Assembly: GCF_000017505.1 (NCBI RefSeq)
Contig: NC_009675.1
Span: forward strand, 4,964,501 to 5,028,500
DNA length: 64,000 bases
Direction: 5' to 3'
From: Anaeromyxobacter sp. Fw109-5
GTDB lineage: Bacteria; Myxococcota; Myxococcia; Myxococcales; Anaeromyxobacteraceae
Shown: positions 3,483 to 14,792 of the stretch, piece by piece
Layout of the letters: each line of letters opens with the position of its first letter
Numbering within the stretch: the first letter of the stretch is position 1
The notes under the pieces: model-generated
Told to the model about the DNA's origin: nothing
Seen by the model: the letters and a program-made list of their open reading frames with translations, nothing else
Databases searched by the model: none
Made by a program: the position numbers and the translations under genes

Positions 3483-3914
3483 TCACACCGGCACGGTGTA
3501 GCAGAGCGCCGTTCCCTCCAGCGCCACCACCCCGTCGCCTCGGGTCACCGTGGTCTTGAGCTCGGTGATGGGCTTGTCCTCCCGCACCTTCACCACCTCG
3601 ACCGCGCCTGTGATGGTGTCACCGGGTCGCGCCGGCGCCTTGAAGCTCCAGTCCACGTGCAGGAACACCGTGCCCGGGCCGGGCAGGTCCTCGGCCACCA
3701 CCGCGTTCAGGATCGCGCTCGTCACCCCGCCCTGCACGATGATCTCGCCGAAGCGCGAGGCGCGCGCGGCGGCCTCGTCGTAGTGGAGCGGGTTGCGATC
3801 TCCGCTCAGGTCGGTGAAGCGGCGGATGTCCTCCGCCTCGACCCGCCGGCTGCGCTCGGCTCGCTGCCCCACGCGCGGCGTCCCCTTCGGCCACACTGCG
3901 TTCCCCGTCGACAT
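3483..3914 (-). CDS. MaoC-like (R)-specific hydratase / dehydratase domain protein
   Basis: A 143-residue single hot-dog-fold protein of the MaoC type. Family members hydrate trans-2-enoyl-CoA or similar thioesters in the cytoplasm. The signature GDRNPLHYDE (about residues 43-52) carries the catalytic Asp and His of the D-x4-H motif, followed by the expected Gly-rich hydratase core (IIVQGGVTSA). The ATG at 3914 has GGAGGAG just upstream. It is the last gene of a leftward run with the FAD oxidoreductase (29-base gap), flavin monooxygenase and osmC, so it may act on an acyl thioester in a shared oxidative pathway. The exact substrate cannot be told from the sequence. Confidence 0.88.
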   Translation of the reverse strand: MSTGNAVWPKGTPRVGQRAERSRRVEAEDIRRFTDLSGDRNPLHYDEAAARASRFGEIIVQGGVTSAILNAVVAEDLPGPGTVFLHVDWSFKAPARPGDTITGAVEVVKVREDKPITELKTTVTRGDGVVALEGTALCYTVPV

Positions 3915-3943
3915 GTGCTCCTCCTCTCCCGATCCCCTCGAGT

Positions 3944-5167
3944 TCACCTGACCAGCTCCGGCACCGACGCGACGCCCGCGCGCCGCGAGGTCGCGACCTC
4001 GGGCGCCGGCAGCTCGTCGAGCGTGCCGATCAGCTCCACCTCGGTCGCCATCTCGCGCGCGAACCGCTTGTGCAGCTCCTTCGCCTCGTCGAGGTCCCAC
4101 TCGTACGAGGCGATGCGATCGGTGGCCTCGAACAGCCCCACCGACACCGCGTCGCGCGCCGCCTGGTAGCCGGCGAGCGCGTCGTCGGTGCCGCGCACCA
4201 CCGCGCGCGCGAGCAGCTCGGCGTCCCGCAGCGCGTCGGTGATCCCGTGCGCGGTGATGGGATCCTTGAAGTAGCCGGCGTCGCCGACGAGCGCCCAGCC
4301 CGGTCCCCACGCGCGGCGCATGAACCCCGGCGTCCCGGGGAACGGCTGGAGCTTCCCGTCGAGCCGGGCGCCCGCGAGCGCCGCCGCGAGGTCGGGCGCC
4401 GCCTCGGTCAGGACCTGCCGGTACAGCGCGTCGACGCCGCCGGGGAGCGCCTCCAGGAGCCGCGGCGGCGGGACCGCGACGAAGACGCAGGTGCGATCGT
4501 CGCTCGTCGGGATCGCGCCGACGCTCACGCCAGGCCGGTAGTGCCAGTGGTAGCCCTCCACCTCGAGGCCGGACCAGTAGCCGTAGACGACGCCGCTGGC
4601 GTGCCGCCCTTCGCGCTCGGTCGGCGCGCCCACGAGCCGGGCGACCCTCGAGCGCAGGCCGTCGGCGCCGATCACGATCGGCGCCGCCACGCGGGCGCGG
4701 CTCCCGTCGATCCCCTCGAGCTCGGCGCCCACGACGCGCCCGGACTCGCCGCGGACGAGCCCGGCGAGCGCGGTGCCGTGGACCACCTGCGCCCCAGCGG
4801 CACGCGCCGCCTCCACGAGGATGGGATCGAGGAGGGTCCGGCGCGGGGCGTAGAGCGCGTCCACCCCGTCACGCGGCTTGATCGCGACCGCGAGCGCCTC
4901 GTCCGCGTAGTGGAACGTGGCGGCGCGGATCGCTGGCGTCCCGGTGGCCTCCAGCCGGTCGACGAGCCCCCAGCGCGCGAGCTGGAGCACGCCGCCGCGC
5001 ATGAGGGCGTGGGTCGAGATCGTGTCGCTCCCCTCGCGGTCGCGGTCCACCGCGAGGACGCGCAGCCCGGCGCGGGCGAGCAGCATCGCCGTCGAGGCGC
5101 CGGCGCAGCGCGCTCCGATCACGAGGGCGTCGTACTCGGACCGCAAGGGGGTGGAGCTGGAGCTCAT
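3944..5167 (-). CDS. FAD-dependent oxidoreductase / monooxygenase, geranylgeranyl-reductase-like
   Basis: A 407-residue cytoplasmic flavoprotein of the PHBH/geranylgeranyl-reductase superfamily. The N-terminal Rossmann motif is YDALVIGARCAGASTAMLLA, the variant GARCAG form typical of this group. A GADGLRSRVARL motif is near residue 180 and the second FAD motif GDAGYFKDPITAHGITDAL is near residue 285. The start at 5167 is preferred because GGAGGA precedes it. An alternative ATG at 5188 would overlap the upstream stop by four bases (ATGA), so the two genes are translationally close either way. It lies between a flavin monooxygenase and a MaoC hydratase in one operon. Hydroxylation or reduction of a hydrophobic substrate is likely; the substrate is unknown. 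Confidence 0.87.
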   Translation of the reverse strand: MSSSSTPLRSEYDALVIGARCAGASTAMLLARAGLRVLAVDRDREGSDTISTHALMRGGVLQLARWGLVDRLEATGTPAIRAATFHYADEALAVAIKPRDGVDALYAPRRTLLDPILVEAARAAGAQVVHGTALAGLVRGESGRVVGAELEGIDGSRARVAAPIVIGADGLRSRVARLVGAPTEREGRHASGVVYGYWSGLEVEGYHWHYRPGVSVGAIPTSDDRTCVFVAVPPPRLLEALPGGVDALYRQVLTEAAPDLAAALAGARLDGKLQPFPGTPGFMRRAWGPGWALVGDAGYFKDPITAHGITDALRDAELLARAVVRGTDDALAGYQAARDAVSVGLFEATDRIASYEWDLDEAKELHKRFAREMATEVELIGTLDELPAPEVATSRRAGVASVPELVR

Positions 5168-5184
5168 GGTCGTTCCTCCGCGGC

Positions 5185-6423
5185 TCATGCCGCCCGCCTG
5201 TCGAGGCGCGCGGCGAGGTGGTCGACGACGGCGGCGGCGTCCGCTCCGACGCCGTCGAGGAAGCTCGACTTGCGCCGCCGAAGGAACTGCAGCCCGAGCA
5301 CGTAGAGCCCGGGCGATGGGGTGATCCCGCCCGCGTGGCGGATCTCGCCGCGCGCGTCGAGCACGGGCACGCGGAGCCACGGGTAGCTGCGGCGGTAGCC
5401 GGTGGCCCACAGCACGGTCCGTATCCCCTCCGCGCGCAGCGCGAGGGAGCCGGGGGCTCGCGGGGGCGCGACGGGGCGCAGCGGCTCCGCCGGCGGCACC
5501 GCCTCGCCCAGGCTGACGTTGGCGACGTGATCGTCGATCCGCCCGAGGAGCCGCACGAGACGCCGCTCGGCGGAGGCGATCGTCTCGGCGAGGTCCCCGG
5601 AGAGGAGCACGCGGCCGCCCTCGATCCCGGTGACCCGCCCCACGAGCCGCACGCCCGCGTCGCGGAGCACGCCCAGGTCGAGCGTCCGATGGTCCGGGCG
5701 GCCCACGAGCTGGAGCGAGGGCTGGCGCCGCGCCACCTCGAGGTCGCCGACGGCGTCCGTCCCCTCGTCGAGGAACCCGGTGGCGTCGAGCCAGGCCATC
5801 ACGTCGCGCCCGCGGTAGCGTCGAGGCAGCCGGACGTGCCGACCCACCGCGAGCGTCACCGGCCGGCCGGAGCGGTGGAGCTCGTCCGCGAGCTGGAGGC
5901 CGGTCGCGGACGCGCCGACCACGAGCACGCCGCCGGGCGGCAGGGCGTCGGCGTTCCGGTACCGCGTGGGGACGAGCTGGACGACGTCGCCGGGGAGCTC
6001 CGAGGCGAGCGCCGGGACGTGCGGCGTGTCGCAGTGACCCGTCGCGACGATGACGCTCCCGGCCCGCCACGCGCCGGCATCCGTGGTGACGCGGTAGCCG
6101 TCGTCCTCGCGCTCCAGCGCGCGGACCGTGACGCCCTCCTCGACCGGCGCCACGAACGAGCGCGCGTACGCCTCGAGGTAGCCGATCACCTCGCGCCGCG
6201 ACATGAACCCGTCCGGATCCGGCCCGCGGTACGAGAAGCCCGGGAGCCGCGACTGCCAGCGGGGCGTGAGCAGCCGCAGCGACTCCCACCGCTCCGAGCG
6301 CCAGCGCTCGGCGACCCGGCCGCGCTCCAGCACCACGTGAGCCACCCCGCGCGCCTGGAGGCAGCGGCTCGCCGCGAGCCCGGCCTGCCCCCCTCCGATG
6401 ACGACCACGTCCGTGCGCCTCAT
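5185..6423 (-). CDS. NAD(P)/FAD-binding flavin monooxygenase (FMO / YUCCA-like)
   Basis: A 412-residue two-dinucleotide-binding-domain flavoprotein. The FAD motif VVVIGGGQAGLAASRCL is at residues 5-21. GPDPDGFMSRREVIGYLEAYA resembles the region before the active site in FMO-like enzymes. The NADPH motif VLVVGASATGLQLADEL is near residue 165, and the ATG motif (VLWATGYR) is near residue 345. These are the hallmarks of class B flavin monooxygenases, which oxygenate N, S or carbonyl substrates. Its start follows the osmC stop by 73 bases, and its stop meets the next gene's region of starts. It belongs to the osmC-led operon with a sigma-54-like promoter. It could instead be a putative thioredoxin-reductase-like oxidoreductase, but the FMO pattern fits better. 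Confidence 0.88.
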   Translation of the reverse strand: MRRTDVVVIGGGQAGLAASRCLQARGVAHVVLERGRVAERWRSERWESLRLLTPRWQSRLPGFSYRGPDPDGFMSRREVIGYLEAYARSFVAPVEEGVTVRALEREDDGYRVTTDAGAWRAGSVIVATGHCDTPHVPALASELPGDVVQLVPTRYRNADALPPGGVLVVGASATGLQLADELHRSGRPVTLAVGRHVRLPRRYRGRDVMAWLDATGFLDEGTDAVGDLEVARRQPSLQLVGRPDHRTLDLGVLRDAGVRLVGRVTGIEGGRVLLSGDLAETIASAERRLVRLLGRIDDHVANVSLGEAVPPAEPLRPVAPPRAPGSLALRAEGIRTVLWATGYRRSYPWLRVPVLDARGEIRHAGGITPSPGLYVLGLQFLRRRKSSFLDGVGADAAAVVDHLAARLDRRAA

Positions 6424-6496: not shown

Positions 6497-7105
6497 TCAC
6501 GCCTCGTTCACCGAGACCTCGACCGGAACGCCGTTCGTCAGCACGTCGTAGACCGCGGAGCGGGCCCTCGACTGCGCCACGATCTCCCGGAGCTTCTCCT
6601 CCGGCGCGTCGCCCTTGATCTTGAAGCTCACGCGGAGCTGCCGGTAACCGTTCCGGACCTCGTTCGAGATCCCGAGGATGCCGCGCAGGTCGATGTCGCC
6701 CTCCACCGTCGACTCGACCTCGTAGAGCGTCACGCCGCGCGCGGCGGCGACGTTCCCGATGCCGGCGGTGAGGCAGGCCGCGATCGCGTGGAGCAGGAAC
6801 TCGACCGGCGTCGGTCCCTGGTCGCGCCCGACGAGGACCGCCGGGTGATCGGCGTCGAGCTCGAACGCGCGCGCGTGCTGGTGCTCGCCGCCCGCCCCGT
6901 GGAACCCCTCGATGCGGGTCCGGCTGTGCGTGCCCTGCTGCCAGCGGTTCGTCGCCCGGAACTGGAACTGCGCGAGCTCCGGCTGCGCCTTCACCGCGCC
7001 GATGGTCGCGAACAGCGTGGGGGTGTCGACGCCGTTCATCGGCGTGGGCGTGCGGCTCGGCTTGCTCGGCCTGGTGTCGGTCTGCATCGTCGCGCTGGTC
7101 TCCAT
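6497..7105 (-). CDS. OsmC/Ohr-family protein
   Basis: A 202-residue OsmC-family protein. Members reduce organic hydroperoxides with cysteine chemistry, though many paralogues have lost this. The typical [17 protein letters not shown] entry and the helix [20 protein letters not shown] (about residues 103-122) carry the first conserved Cys. The second Cys, normally in a CPxS-like motif, is replaced in [15 protein letters not shown] near residue 180. Peroxidase activity by the usual two-Cys route is therefore doubtful. The N-terminus has about 30 extra polar residues; a start at 7087 is also possible. It is first in an operon of four and is preceded by a sigma-54-like promoter. Confidence 0.86.
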
Positions 7106-7168
7106 CGTCGTCTCCGTCGCCCTGGGGACCGGTCATCGGTCCCGCGTCGGTGGGCGACGGCGGCTATC

Positions 7169-7183
7169 GCAGTCGGCGTGCCA
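7169..7183 (-). promoter_or_regulatory. Sigma-54 (-24/-12) promoter for the osmC operon
   Basis: On the minus strand the sequence reads TGGCACG-CCGAC-TGC. The -24 heptamer is perfect and GG and GC are ten bases apart as sigma-54 requires. Transcription would start near 7157, about 52 bases before the osmC ATG. The divergent gene encodes a sigma-54 activator with an intact GAFTGA loop, which supports the call. Confidence 0.75.
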
Positions 7184-7247
7184 GCCGGACGCGCGCGGGA
7201 GATCGCTGCGGACACGGACTCTCCCTGCGCCGCTCCCCGCCAGGGAC

Positions 7248-7283
7248 GCGACGAGAGCTCGTCGCGGGACGAGGACTCGTCGC
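7248..7283. promoter_or_regulatory. Two abutting 18-bp palindromes, likely activator (UAS) sites
   Basis: Bases 7248-7265 read GCGACGAG-AG-CTCGTCGC, a perfect 8-bp inverted repeat. Bases 7266-7283 read GGGACGAG-GA-CTCGTCGC, the same repeat with one mismatch, with no base between the two. Their centres lie about 100 and 118 bases upstream of the predicted osmC start point, which is typical for an enhancer bound by a Fis-type sigma-54 activator. The activator gene begins 88 bases to the right, so the sites may also control it. Confidence 0.7.
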
Positions 7284-7371
7284 TCCGCTCGACCCGGGGA
7301 TCGCCGGAGTGCGCGCCGCCGCGCGCTCGCTATGTTCCGCTCGCGCGAGAGGCACGGCAGCGGAGCGAGAC

Positions 7372-9354
<1,983 letters not shown>

Positions 9355-9430
9355 ACGTCTCCGTCCCGGAGCCGGCCGGCGAGGGGACGAGCCCGCGAGC
9401 CGTCGGTCCGCGCGATCGCGGCTACCGCGG

Positions 9431-10276
9431 CTAGTGATACGTCTCCGGCCGATCCAGCTCGAGCGCCTCGACCGCGAAGCGCGCGTACGGCCGCGTACGG
9501 CCGCCGACGTGCCAGCTCGCCTCGAGGAGGACCGGCACGCGCAGGCCGTCGACCTCGTGGTACTCGCTGCACTCCGCGGTCCACGGGGTGAGCACCGGCT
9601 GGCCGTCGACCTGGCGATGGCGAGCGGCGGTGATGCGCGACGGCAGCCCGTTCGCGTCGAAGTGGAACGTCGCGGCGACCTCCCTCCCCCGGACGCGCAG
9701 GATGGCTCGCGCGCTCGTGTCGTCCACCGGCGTCCAGCGGACGTAGCGCGCGTCGAGCAGGGCGGTCGGGAACCACACCATCTCGCCGAGCAGCCGCTGG
9801 AGGGCGGCCTCGTCGATCTCGCGCCCGCGGGCGGCCGCGAGCCTGAAGCTCGAGGCGAGCAGGACGCGCAGCTCGCCCTCGCCCGACACGGACCGGTCGC
9901 GCGCGTCGATCCACAGCCCGGGCCCGGTGCGGACGCGGCCCCACCAGACGAAGCCGGGGGGATCGCTCGCGAAGTACTCCTCGCCGCGGATCGCGAGCCA
10001 GGGCCTGTCGAGGCGCGGGCGGAACGTCCCCCCGTGGCGGAGCCGGGCGGCGCGGACGGGCGTGTGCCGCGCGGCTCCCGAAGCTTCCGCGTAGCGGCGC
10101 ACCGGCGGCGGCAGCGCCTCGAGCCCGGCGCGTCGCTGCGGCCCGCCGCTCTCCGAGCTCCACAGCTGGCGCGCCTCCCCGGCGACCCGCCGCTGGAAGC
10201 GCCTCGCCTGCACCGCGATCGCCAGCCCCACGCCTCCCGCGGCCAGCGCGGCGATCCCCATCGACCTGCGGATCAT
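9431..10276 (-). CDS. DUF6544-type conserved protein
   Basis: A 281-residue protein with one N-terminal hydrophobic segment (about residues 5-22), so probably membrane-anchored or secreted. The body matches the DUF6544 style: RLRHGGTFRPRLDRPWLAIRGEEYF, then WWGRVRTGPGLWIDARDRSVSGEGELRV, with a conserved aromatic end (RPYARFAVEAL). Repeated beta-strands suggest a lipocalin-like or SRPBCC-adjacent fold, but this is a guess. The ATG at 10276 begins MIRRSMG. It lies 134 bases downstream of an amino-acid permease on the same strand. The function is unknown. Confidence 0.75.
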   Translation of the reverse strand: MIRRSMGIAALAAGGVGLAIAVQARRFQRRVAGEARQLWSSESGGPQRRAGLEALPPPVRRYAEASGAARHTPVRAARLRHGGTFRPRLDRPWLAIRGEEYFASDPPGFVWWGRVRTGPGLWIDARDRSVSGEGELRVLLASSFRLAAARGREIDEAALQRLLGEMVWFPTALLDARYVRWTPVDDTSARAILRVRGREVAATFHFDANGLPSRITAARHRQVDGQPVLTPWTAECSEYHEVDGLRVPVLLEASWHVGGRTRPYARFAVEALELDRPETYH

Positions 10277-10410
10277 GGCGAGCCCCCCTCCTCGCGGCGC
10301 ATGGTCCCCGATCGCCCGGTCCACCGCACGGTGGCCTTCGGGAGTGGTCCGTCGCGCGGAACCTGCCCGGAGCGCGGCACCTCCCGCCCGGAGGGAGACG
10401 CCCCGACTCG

Positions 10411-11784
10411 TCAGGGCCGCCCGGCGCGCCCGCGGATCACCTGCCAGGCGTACACCGGCAGCCCCAGCAGGAGCAGCACGAACCCCCAGAGCACCGTCTC
10501 GGGCCCGGAGCCGGCGACGGCCACCACCGAGAAGGCGAAGGCGAGGGAGGCCAGCGCGATCGGTCCCGCGATCCGCCCGCGCGGCTCGCCCCGGCTGGCG
10601 AGGAGGATCACGAGCGCCACCGCCGAGAACGCGTACGGCAGCAGCGTCGAGAGCGTGGCGAGGAGCACGACGAACGAGAACACGGCGACTGCGCTCCGCG
10701 TGCCGACGGCGTTCTCCGCGACGAGCAGGGTCACGAGGACGGCGGACACGGCGATCGCGAACGTCGGCGCGCCGAACCCGTTCTGACGCGCGAAGGCGCG
10801 AGGGAAGAGGCCGTCGCGCGCCGCCGCCATGGGGACCTGCCCCATGAGCAGCGTGTAGCCGTTCAGCGTCCCCAGGCACGAGGCGACCGCGCCGAGCGTG
10901 ACGAGCATCCCCGCCCACGATCCCCACAGGGCCGTCGCGGCGGTCGCGAATGGCGCGCCGTCCCGGGCGAGCGCCTCGCGCGGGACCACGCCCAGCACCA
11001 CCACGGTCCCGGCCACGTAGACGATCGAGGCGAGGACGGTGCCGAGCACGGTCGCCCGCGGGATCGTCACGGAAGGTCGATCGACGTCGTCGCCGGGCAC
11101 GGTGGCCGACTCGAGCCCCAGGAACGCCCACAGCGTGAGCGCCATGGTCGCGGCGAGCGCGTGCGGCCAGGGCTGTCCGCTCGGGTTCACGGGGAGGAAA
11201 TGCGCCCCGCGTATGGCGGGCAGACCGAGCAGGCCGACCGCCAGGAGCGGCAGGAGCTTCAGCCCGGTCATGACGAGCTGGAAGCGGCCGGCGCTGGCGA
11301 CGCCGCGCCAGTTGACGCCCACCGTGAGCCACGTGAGCGCGACCGCCAGCCCGCCCTGCGCGAGGGGCCTCCCCGCGAGCCCGGGGACGATGGCCCCGAG
11401 GTAGCTCACCGCGGCGACCGCGATGGCGGCGTTCCCCGCCCACAGGCCGATCCAGTACCCCCAGGCGATCCAGTAGGCGGCGAAGTCGCCGAACGCCGCG
11501 CGCACGTACACGTACGGCCCTCCCGCCGCACCGCCCACGAGGCGCGCGAGGCGCGCGAACACGAGCGCGAGGAGGAGCGCGCCGACGGAGGTCCCGATCC
11601 AGCCGCCGATGGACAGCGCGCCGAACGGCGCGAGCGCCGCGGGGAGGAGGAAGATCCCCGAGCCGATCATGTTCCCGACCACGAGCGCGGTGCAGGTGAG
11701 GACGCCGATCTTGCGGCGCGGCGGCGCGCCGGCGGGCGGAGGCGAGGCGGCGGAGCGGTGCGGCGTGGCCATCGGGCCGCGCAT
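10411..11784 (-). CDS. APC-family amino acid permease, AdiC/PotE-like
   Basis: A 457-residue inner-membrane transporter with about 12 helices. The first helix contains VVGNMIGSGIFLLPAALAPFG, the unwound substrate-binding segment of APC antiporters. WGYWIGLWAGNAAIAVAAVSY and LWAFLGLESATVPGDDV also fit the basic amino acid/polyamine antiporter group, which often exchanges arginine or ornithine for its decarboxylation product. The first 25 residues are polar; a start at 11772 (MATPHR) is possible. The aminotransferase gene ends 46 bases upstream on the same strand, so the two are probably cotranscribed and may import and transaminate the same amino acid. Confidence 0.9.
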   Translation of the reverse strand: MRGPMATPHRSAASPPPAGAPPRRKIGVLTCTALVVGNMIGSGIFLLPAALAPFGALSIGGWIGTSVGALLLALVFARLARLVGGAAGGPYVYVRAAFGDFAAYWIAWGYWIGLWAGNAAIAVAAVSYLGAIVPGLAGRPLAQGGLAVALTWLTVGVNWRGVASAGRFQLVMTGLKLLPLLAVGLLGLPAIRGAHFLPVNPSGQPWPHALAATMALTLWAFLGLESATVPGDDVDRPSVTIPRATVLGTVLASIVYVAGTVVVLGVVPREALARDGAPFATAATALWGSWAGMLVTLGAVASCLGTLNGYTLLMGQVPMAAARDGLFPRAFARQNGFGAPTFAIAVSAVLVTLLVAENAVGTRSAVAVFSFVVLLATLSTLLPYAFSAVALVILLASRGEPRGRIAGPIALASLAFAFSVVAVAGSGPETVLWGFVLLLLGLPVYAWQVIRGRAGRP

Positions 11785-13492: not shown

Positions 13493-14299
13493 CTACTGGG
13501 CGTAGGCGCAGATCACCCAGACGCTCCCCGCGTACTGCTGCCCGTTGCGCTTGAACTCGCCGATCCAGGTCCGGCCGTCGACGTCCGGATAGGAGCCCTG
13601 CAGCACGCCGGGCAGCACCGCCCGCGCTCCGCCGCTGATGGCCTTCTTGCCGCTCGGGCACACGGCGGTGACCGCCTGTACGCCGGTGCCGGCCGTGATC
13701 GTCCTGGCATCGGTGAGCCGCTCGAACCCGGACACGCCGCTCGGGCCTTCCGGCCCCGCCTCGCCCGGCGGGCCCGCGGGGCCCATGGGACCGATCTGAC
13801 CGGGCTGCCCCGGCTCGCCCTGCGGGCCCGTCATTCCGCTCGGCCCGATCGGCCCGATCGGCCCCTGGGGCCCGGTCTCGCCGCGCTCACCCTGCGGTCC
13901 GGCGGGACCGGCTTCGCCGCGTGGTCCCTGCGGGCCGGCAGCACCGGCAGGCCCAGCGGGACCGGGAGGACCGGCGGGACCCTGCGCCCCCTCGGCGCCG
14001 ATCGTCACGTCCATCGACGCGCTCGCGTTTCCCGGCGCGCGAACGACCACGACCCGGTACGTCCCCGCCTGCAGGTCGTCCGGCAGCGCAGCGACGATGT
14101 CCGTCGGCGAGTGGCTCTGCACGGTGAGGACGGCCTTGCCGACGACGACCGTGGCGGGCTGGGAGCCGAAGCCCTGGCCGTGGACGAACAGCACGCCGCC
14201 GGCGAGATCGGCGTCGGCGCGGGTGATCTCGATCTTGCCCTGCTGCGCGAGCGCGGCTTGCGCGAAGAGCGCGAGCGCGAGAGCCGTGAACGTCTTCAT
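13493..14299 (-). CDS. Secreted collagen-like protein with N-terminal IPT/TIG-type domain
   Basis: A 268-residue exported protein. Residues 1-18 form a signal peptide ending ALA-Q. Residues about 20-105 look like an IPT/TIG immunoglobulin fold ([24 protein letters not shown] as two strands and a turn). Residues about 107-195 are uninterrupted Gly-X-Y triplets rich in Pro, Gln and Glu ([19 protein letters not shown] and similar), able to form a collagen triple helix. The last 75 residues are a compact domain with two Cys ([14 protein letters not shown] and VWVICAYA), probably disulfide-linked, perhaps a trimerisation or binding head. The start at 14299 is fixed by the signal peptide. Likely an extracellular fibre or adhesin; no catalytic motif is seen. 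Confidence 0.85.
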
Positions 14300-14792
14300 G
14301 GTGAACCCCTCTCCGGCGCCAATCACCACCGGTGACTGACACTTTGGGATGATCGCGAGAGGCTCCGCCACGTCCCCGTTGGGCTTGTAAACGCTGCGCC
14401 TTCACGCAGCCACCTCGCGCACCTGCGGCGCGAACGAGCGCGCGCATGCGCGCCCACACCGGCATTCACCCTTCGTCAACAGGAGTCCCCGGCGCGTGCC
14501 CGGGCGCGAACCCGCCGAGAAGTCCGATCAATCTCGACCCCCTCGGCCCCCGGGCGCGGGGGTGACCACGCAGCAGACGATCCGGGCGCGGCCGAGGACG
14601 CGCGTGAGTCGAGGGCGACCTCGCTCGCCAGTCATCCCGGTCTCGTCGACCCCGCGACCATTGGCCGCTGCGATCGGGACGAGCCGCGCTCGACCTCGAC
14701 CTCGACGACCCCGACCCCGATCCCGACCGCCGTCCCGACCTCGGCGCGAAGTCGAGGGACGACCTCGGCTATGTTCCTCTCAGGAGGTGTGG
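14300..14792. other. Intergenic region with small palindromes and GACC-type repeats
   Basis: This 493-base divergent gap holds no convincing gene. Near the collagen-like gene is TCACC-ACC-GGTGA (14323-14335), a possible operator. A hairpin GCTGCG-CCTTCA-CGCAGC lies at 14393-14410. Bases about 14690-14760 are a degenerate run of GACCTC/GACCCC hexamers like the larger array at 43030. TATGTT at 14770-14775, followed by GGAGGT, leads into the small gene at 14793. Confidence 0.5.

Follow-up and report, generated by a model that had tools for sequence, protein, structure and literature searches.

Palindromic dyads as probable enhancer sites of a sigma-54 promoter between osmC and a divergent GAF-PAS activator in Anaeromyxobacter

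In Anaeromyxobacter sp. Fw109-5, osmC and a divergent gene for a GAF-PAS sigma-54 activator (EBP) are separated by a 266-bp gap that contains both a -24/-12 element and a pair of palindromic dyads. On the strength of the sequence comparisons below, the dyads are very probably enhancer (UAS) sites from which the EBP would activate sigma-54 polymerase at the osmC promoter.

Results

The osmC operon and its products

The window is the whole 64,000-nucleotide stretch of DNA that we analyzed, and the features discussed here are collected in Table 1. The operon that the earlier note described, with OsmC, a pair of flavoproteins, and MaoC, is borne out, except that MaoC was found in only some of the Anaeromyxobacter copies searched. 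The cysteine C111 of OsmC is invariant across eight homologues. Classical OsmC/Ohr peroxidases have a peroxidatic and a resolving Cys, but C111 is the only cysteine here, and therefore a classical two-cysteine peroxidase is unlikely. The only solved relative of the window OsmC is PDB 2opl (phmmer E value of 3e-47), a structural-genomics entry without a function. The one-cysteine subfamily (the window protein and those of L040, L041, and L105) is related to 2opl and, below the cut-off, to the NCBIfam entry "OsmC-related (seleno)protein." The FMO-type flavoprotein scores 365 bits against the MSMEG_0569 flavoprotein family, whose cut-off is 498. The earlier note had suggested an oxidative catabolic or detoxification route; our guess is that the operon may handle a reactive or xenobiotic small molecule, in detoxification. 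Elsewhere in the window, positions 13493 to 14371 encode a collagen-like GXX-repeat protein.

Table 1. Positions of the genes, promoter element, and dyads in the window
Feature	Positions	Strand	Basis or remark
MaoC-like hydratase, variable operon member	3486..3938	minus	domain search
FAD-dependent monooxygenase (FAD_binding_3)	3947..5221	minus	start codon inside frame, near 5197
FAD/NAD(P) oxidoreductase (FMO/Pyr_redox_3)	5188..6423	minus	MSMEG_0569-like, under family cut-off
OsmC-family protein, 202 aa, single Cys C111	6500..7105	minus	Pfam OsmC 9e-20
Sigma-54 -24/-12 element TGGCACGCCGACTGC	7169..7183	minus	sequence
Proximal putative enhancer dyad GCGACGAGAGCTCGTCGC	7248..7265	no strand	centre 73 bp upstream of -24; sequence, PWM
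Middle putative enhancer dyad GGGACGAGGACTCGTCGC	7266..7283	no strand	centre 91 bp upstream of -24; sequence, PWM
Possible degenerate third (distal) dyad CGACCCGGGGATCG	7288..7301	no strand	by-eye reading against orthologue geometry; weak
GAF-PAS-AAA+-HTH_8 sigma-54 activator (EBP), 660 aa	7372..9354	plus	domain search, motifs, predicted structure

A sigma-54 promoter ahead of osmC

The -24 half of TGGCACGCCGACTGC is exact, and the -12 half is CTGCG versus TTGCW. The GG of -24 and the GC of -12 are correctly spaced, as in EBP-activated sigma-54 promoters, and the genome encodes RpoN (sigma-54). The predicted osmC transcription start lies near 7158. With the ATG at 7105, this would give a leader of about 53 nt, which matches the 52 bases previously put between promoter and gene. 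The pattern TGGCACGN5TGC occurs 13 times on both strands of the 5,277,990-bp single-contig genome (5.28 Mb), so that about 7e-4 copies are expected per 266-bp gap; a control pattern, the motif read backwards, is commoner. The element is retained at four orthologous promoters and is gone at L038, an EBP-less paralogue. Together, TGGCACGCCGACTGC and its conservation in orthologues uphold the earlier proposal of a sigma-54 promoter ahead of osmC. A scan of positions 6500 to 8000 for sigma-70-like promoters and terminators found none.

An inverted repeat, GGGACCG-N5-CGGTCCC (7116 to 7137, minus strand), lies in the predicted 5' UTR of osmC. A hairpin of this GACCG/CGGTC type, with a loop of 4 to 6 nt, is kept in four orthologues. 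Because it is also kept at L038, it is independent of the EBP, and the varying loop length favors an RNA hairpin over an operator.

Two abutting dyads upstream of the promoter

The proximal dyad, GCGACGAG-AG-CTCGTCGC, is perfect, with 8/8 arm pairs. The middle dyad, GGGACGAG-GA-CTCGTCGC, has 7/8 arm pairs and a single mismatched one. Twin abutting 18-bp palindromes had been reported before, and both are indeed present at a spacing of 18; however, owing to the mismatched pair, the left arm of the middle dyad is not GCGACGAG as had been thought. The distal candidate sits where orthologues have a site about 113 to 116 bp upstream of -24, and the position weight matrix (PWM) described below did not recover it. 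The imperfect second dyad and the degenerate third site count against the enhancer reading.

The activator

The EBP carries Walker A, GAFTGA, and DEIGE motifs and an HTH whose recognition helix, STLxSR[MV]KAL, is conserved. An AAA+ domain with Walker A and GAFTGA, an HTH, and a genomic sigma-54, all present here, are what an EBP-activated sigma-54 promoter calls for. The sensor is predicted to be GAF plus PAS (pLDDT of 80.6), domain types that make signal sensing likely and suggest a ligand. The protein scores below four curated equivalog cut-offs (NifA, 374 of 529 bits; NorR, 354 of 476; FHL activator, 341 of 830; DhaR, 208 of 551). Upstream of its gene, CTCGCTATGTTCCG (7328 to 7341) is conserved in several Anaeromyxobacter, and the TATGTT within it may be the -10 of an EBP promoter.

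Three known activators were compared with the EBP. NorR, the EBP of norVW, is alike in its GAF sensor, its AAA+ domain with GAFTGA, its HTH, and a sigma-54 target adjoining its gene; the window EBP differs in having an additional second, PAS-like domain. norVW has three enhancer sites. DhaR also has a GAF+PAS sensor, and DhaR(N) is the best PDB fold match to the predicted EBP sensor, but global superposition is poor (TM of about 0.27) and DhaR, unlike the window EBP in this comparison, senses partner proteins. FhlA is likewise a GAF-type, ligand-responsive EBP, although it governs the formate regulon. Its operator is CATTTCGTACGAAATG (PMC4987338) and includes the half-site ATTTCG, which is also present in window-type dyads; however, the FhlA half-sites are oppositely oriented, whereas the window-type dyad is of the CGAAAT-ATTTCG type. 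The NorR operator is listed as GT(N)7AC (PMC4987338) and does not match TCRYGARATYTCRYGA, the operator consensus of the window EBP group. That consensus therefore has the family operator sequence of neither NorR nor FhlA.

Conservation within Anaeromyxobacter

The osmC operon is found in five of nine Anaeromyxobacter genomes. The EBP is in the same five, and both are absent from the other four. At all five EBP-osmC loci (the window and four others), the divergent gap contains the -24/-12 element and the dyads. A. oryzae has a second osmC-FAD monooxygenase copy (L038/L122) that neither EBP nor FMO adjoins, and the region upstream of it lacks both promoter and dyads. This paralogue serves as the natural control. 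The earlier note had named loss of the palindromes where the genes are kept as a finding that would refute its proposal. We found that the dyads are kept wherever the EBP adjoins the operon (5/5) and are lost at the EBP-less osmC paralogue.

Arrays beside EBP orthologues in two phyla

EBP orthologues were found in 8 of 195 Myxococcota genomes and 17 of 198 Nitrospirota genomes searched. Outside the genus, the sensor orthologues (three Myxococcota and 17 Nitrospirota) are 48 to 68% identical. No close sensor match came up among the 398 Pseudomonadota sampled, nor among 29 further genomes located via OsmC-homologue loci, empty results that are weak evidence, and a plasmid search gave distant matches only.

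Beside the EBP gene, nearly all EBP-orthologue loci have an array of TCRYGARATYTCRYGA-like palindromes together with a -24/-12 element. At most of them, the dyad centres lie 111 to 116, 89 to 94, and 72 to 77 bp upstream of -24, with spacings of 22 and 17. The typical centres are at about 114, 92, and 75 bp, and the window retains those at 91 and 73 bp. Upstream sites that are conserved in orthologues are what is expected of an EBP-activated sigma-54 promoter, and the window dyads fit this. In G151 and G152, the two most distant Myxococcota, which belong to another family, the pair spacing is 18, as in the window, and the centres are at 81/63 and 78/60 bp, closer to -24 by about one turn of the helix. 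Among the Nitrospirota, the array is absent at L175 and shifted at L176. The -24 elements of L162, L143, and L144 are weaker. These exceptions, too, count against the enhancer reading.

In Nitrospirota and in G151 and G152, the array follows the 3' end of the EBP gene and precedes the next (target) gene. This placement indicates that the array serves the target promoter and not that of the EBP itself. It bears on an improbable alternative, in which the dyads are autoregulatory operators for the EBP's own divergent promoter and control of osmC is incidental. In the window, the dyads fall 89 to 124 bp ahead of the EBP start codon, and several orthologues keep a -10-like element, TATGTT (7330 to 7335), as autoregulation would have it. 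However, the Nitrospirota, G151, and G152 arrays are about 2 kb from the EBP start and beside the target -24/-12, and an array that tracks the target promoter makes it unlikely that autoregulation is the role that has been conserved. In Anaeromyxobacter, autoregulation may occur as a side effect.

A little less probable still is that the dyads bind a different regulator, such as a repressor encoded elsewhere, and that the EBP works independently of them. Being generic operator shapes, palindromes would suit such a protein. However, the arrays co-occur with EBP orthologues in two phyla at a fixed distance from -24, and the dyads are gone at the EBP-less paralogue. The same conservation with the EBP supports the earlier assignment of the palindromes to the divergent GAF-PAS activator as its enhancer sites.

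Specificity of the dyads

When this gap was resampled with a first-order Markov model, 1.3% of the resamplings contained two such dyads 16 to 24 bp apart, and pairs exactly 18 apart arose at about 0.001 per resampling. On their own, the palindromes are therefore only modest evidence, and even with the count of the promoter pattern they would be no more than suggestive. In a simple test of arm complementarity, the excess over controls was only moderate. What makes the dyads convincing is their conservation in orthologous promoters. That the palindromes and the -24/-12 element arose by chance because the gap is rich in GC is thus a very remote prospect: paired dyads are to be expected now and then in GC-rich DNA (about 2 expected and 3 observed per 64 kb at spacings of 16 to 24 bp), but the conservation of sequence and geometry across genera and phyla refutes this explanation.

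EM on Nitrospirota, G151, and G152 only, with Anaeromyxobacter left out, yielded a symmetric PWM. The full 16-bp PWM, which is dominated by the AT-richer outer positions of Nitrospira sites, ranked the window dyads only 99 and 463. Its 12-bp symmetric core, picked after that result was seen, ranked the proximal dyad 2 and the middle dyad 27 of 63,989, and with it the dyad pair at spacing 18 ranked 1 of 63,971 positions. Genome-wide, copies of the dyad pair (spacing of 17 or 18, 0 to 1 mismatch) coincide with one of the 13 TGGCACGN5TGC sites only at osmC; weaker regulon members, with 2 or more mismatches, may exist elsewhere in the genome.

Target genes

In Anaeromyxobacter, the targets are osmC-FMO-FAD monooxygenase, with or without MaoC. 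In Nitrospira, they are a membrane protein of about 152 aa without a Pfam match and an OsmC that belongs to the window protein's subfamily (within about 2 kb at 11 of 17 loci); others are SnoaL-like, metallo-hydrolase, and methyltransferase genes, and at L167 RND efflux genes. A berberine-bridge FAD oxidase is the target at G023, and an AurF-like oxygenase (a weak match) at G151 and G152. We infer redox chemistry and efflux acting on small molecules as the common theme.

At L164 (Nitrospira), a TPR-protein gene (about 8866 to 10760, EBP-sense orientation) lies between the promoter and the start of a second copy of the membrane-protein gene. That start has the same N-terminal peptide, RHPLTTRSSMMATI, and the arrangement looks like a duplication or an insertion at the promoter.

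Clusters of osmC-FMO-FAD monooxygenase are common without this EBP in Acidobacteria, Actinobacteria, and other Myxococcota, which speaks against novelty of the enzymes. At L049, L054, L067, and L085, in other taxa, the cluster adjoins genes for large regulators of the BTAD or LuxR type that carry AAA domains, suggesting regulator exchange.

Discussion

We suggest that the GAF-PAS sensor domains of the EBP receive a signal, possibly a ligand, and that the signalled EBP would then assemble on the tandem dyads. With looping of the intervening DNA, its GAFTGA-bearing AAA+ ring would remodel the sigma-54 RNA polymerase waiting at TGGCACG-N5-TGC, and this remodelling would switch on osmC-FMO-FAD monooxygenase-MaoC.

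EBP-activated sigma-54 promoters are of a known kind. What stands out here is that the geometry is nearly fixed and that the targets have been exchanged. A search of an open literature library found no description of the operator or the operon. We put at about even the chance that the GAF-PAS EBP, together with as many as three dyads at a constant distance from a sigma-54 promoter, makes up an apparently undescribed cassette common to Myxococcota and Nitrospirota. Its driven genes (OsmC, flavin monooxygenases, an AurF-like oxygenase, and an RND pump) would have been exchanged, which would point to a single shared signal, toxic or redox.

For an uncharacterized activator group in two phyla, including the nitrifying Nitrospira, the analysis supplies an operator, a promoter, and a regulator that can be tested directly. 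It also leads to the prediction that a widespread operon of OsmC and flavoproteins has come under regulators that differ from lineage to lineage. The distance from enhancer to -24, nearly constant from one phylum to the other, offers natural data on the rigidity of enhancer geometry, and the common regulator could help to find the common signal.
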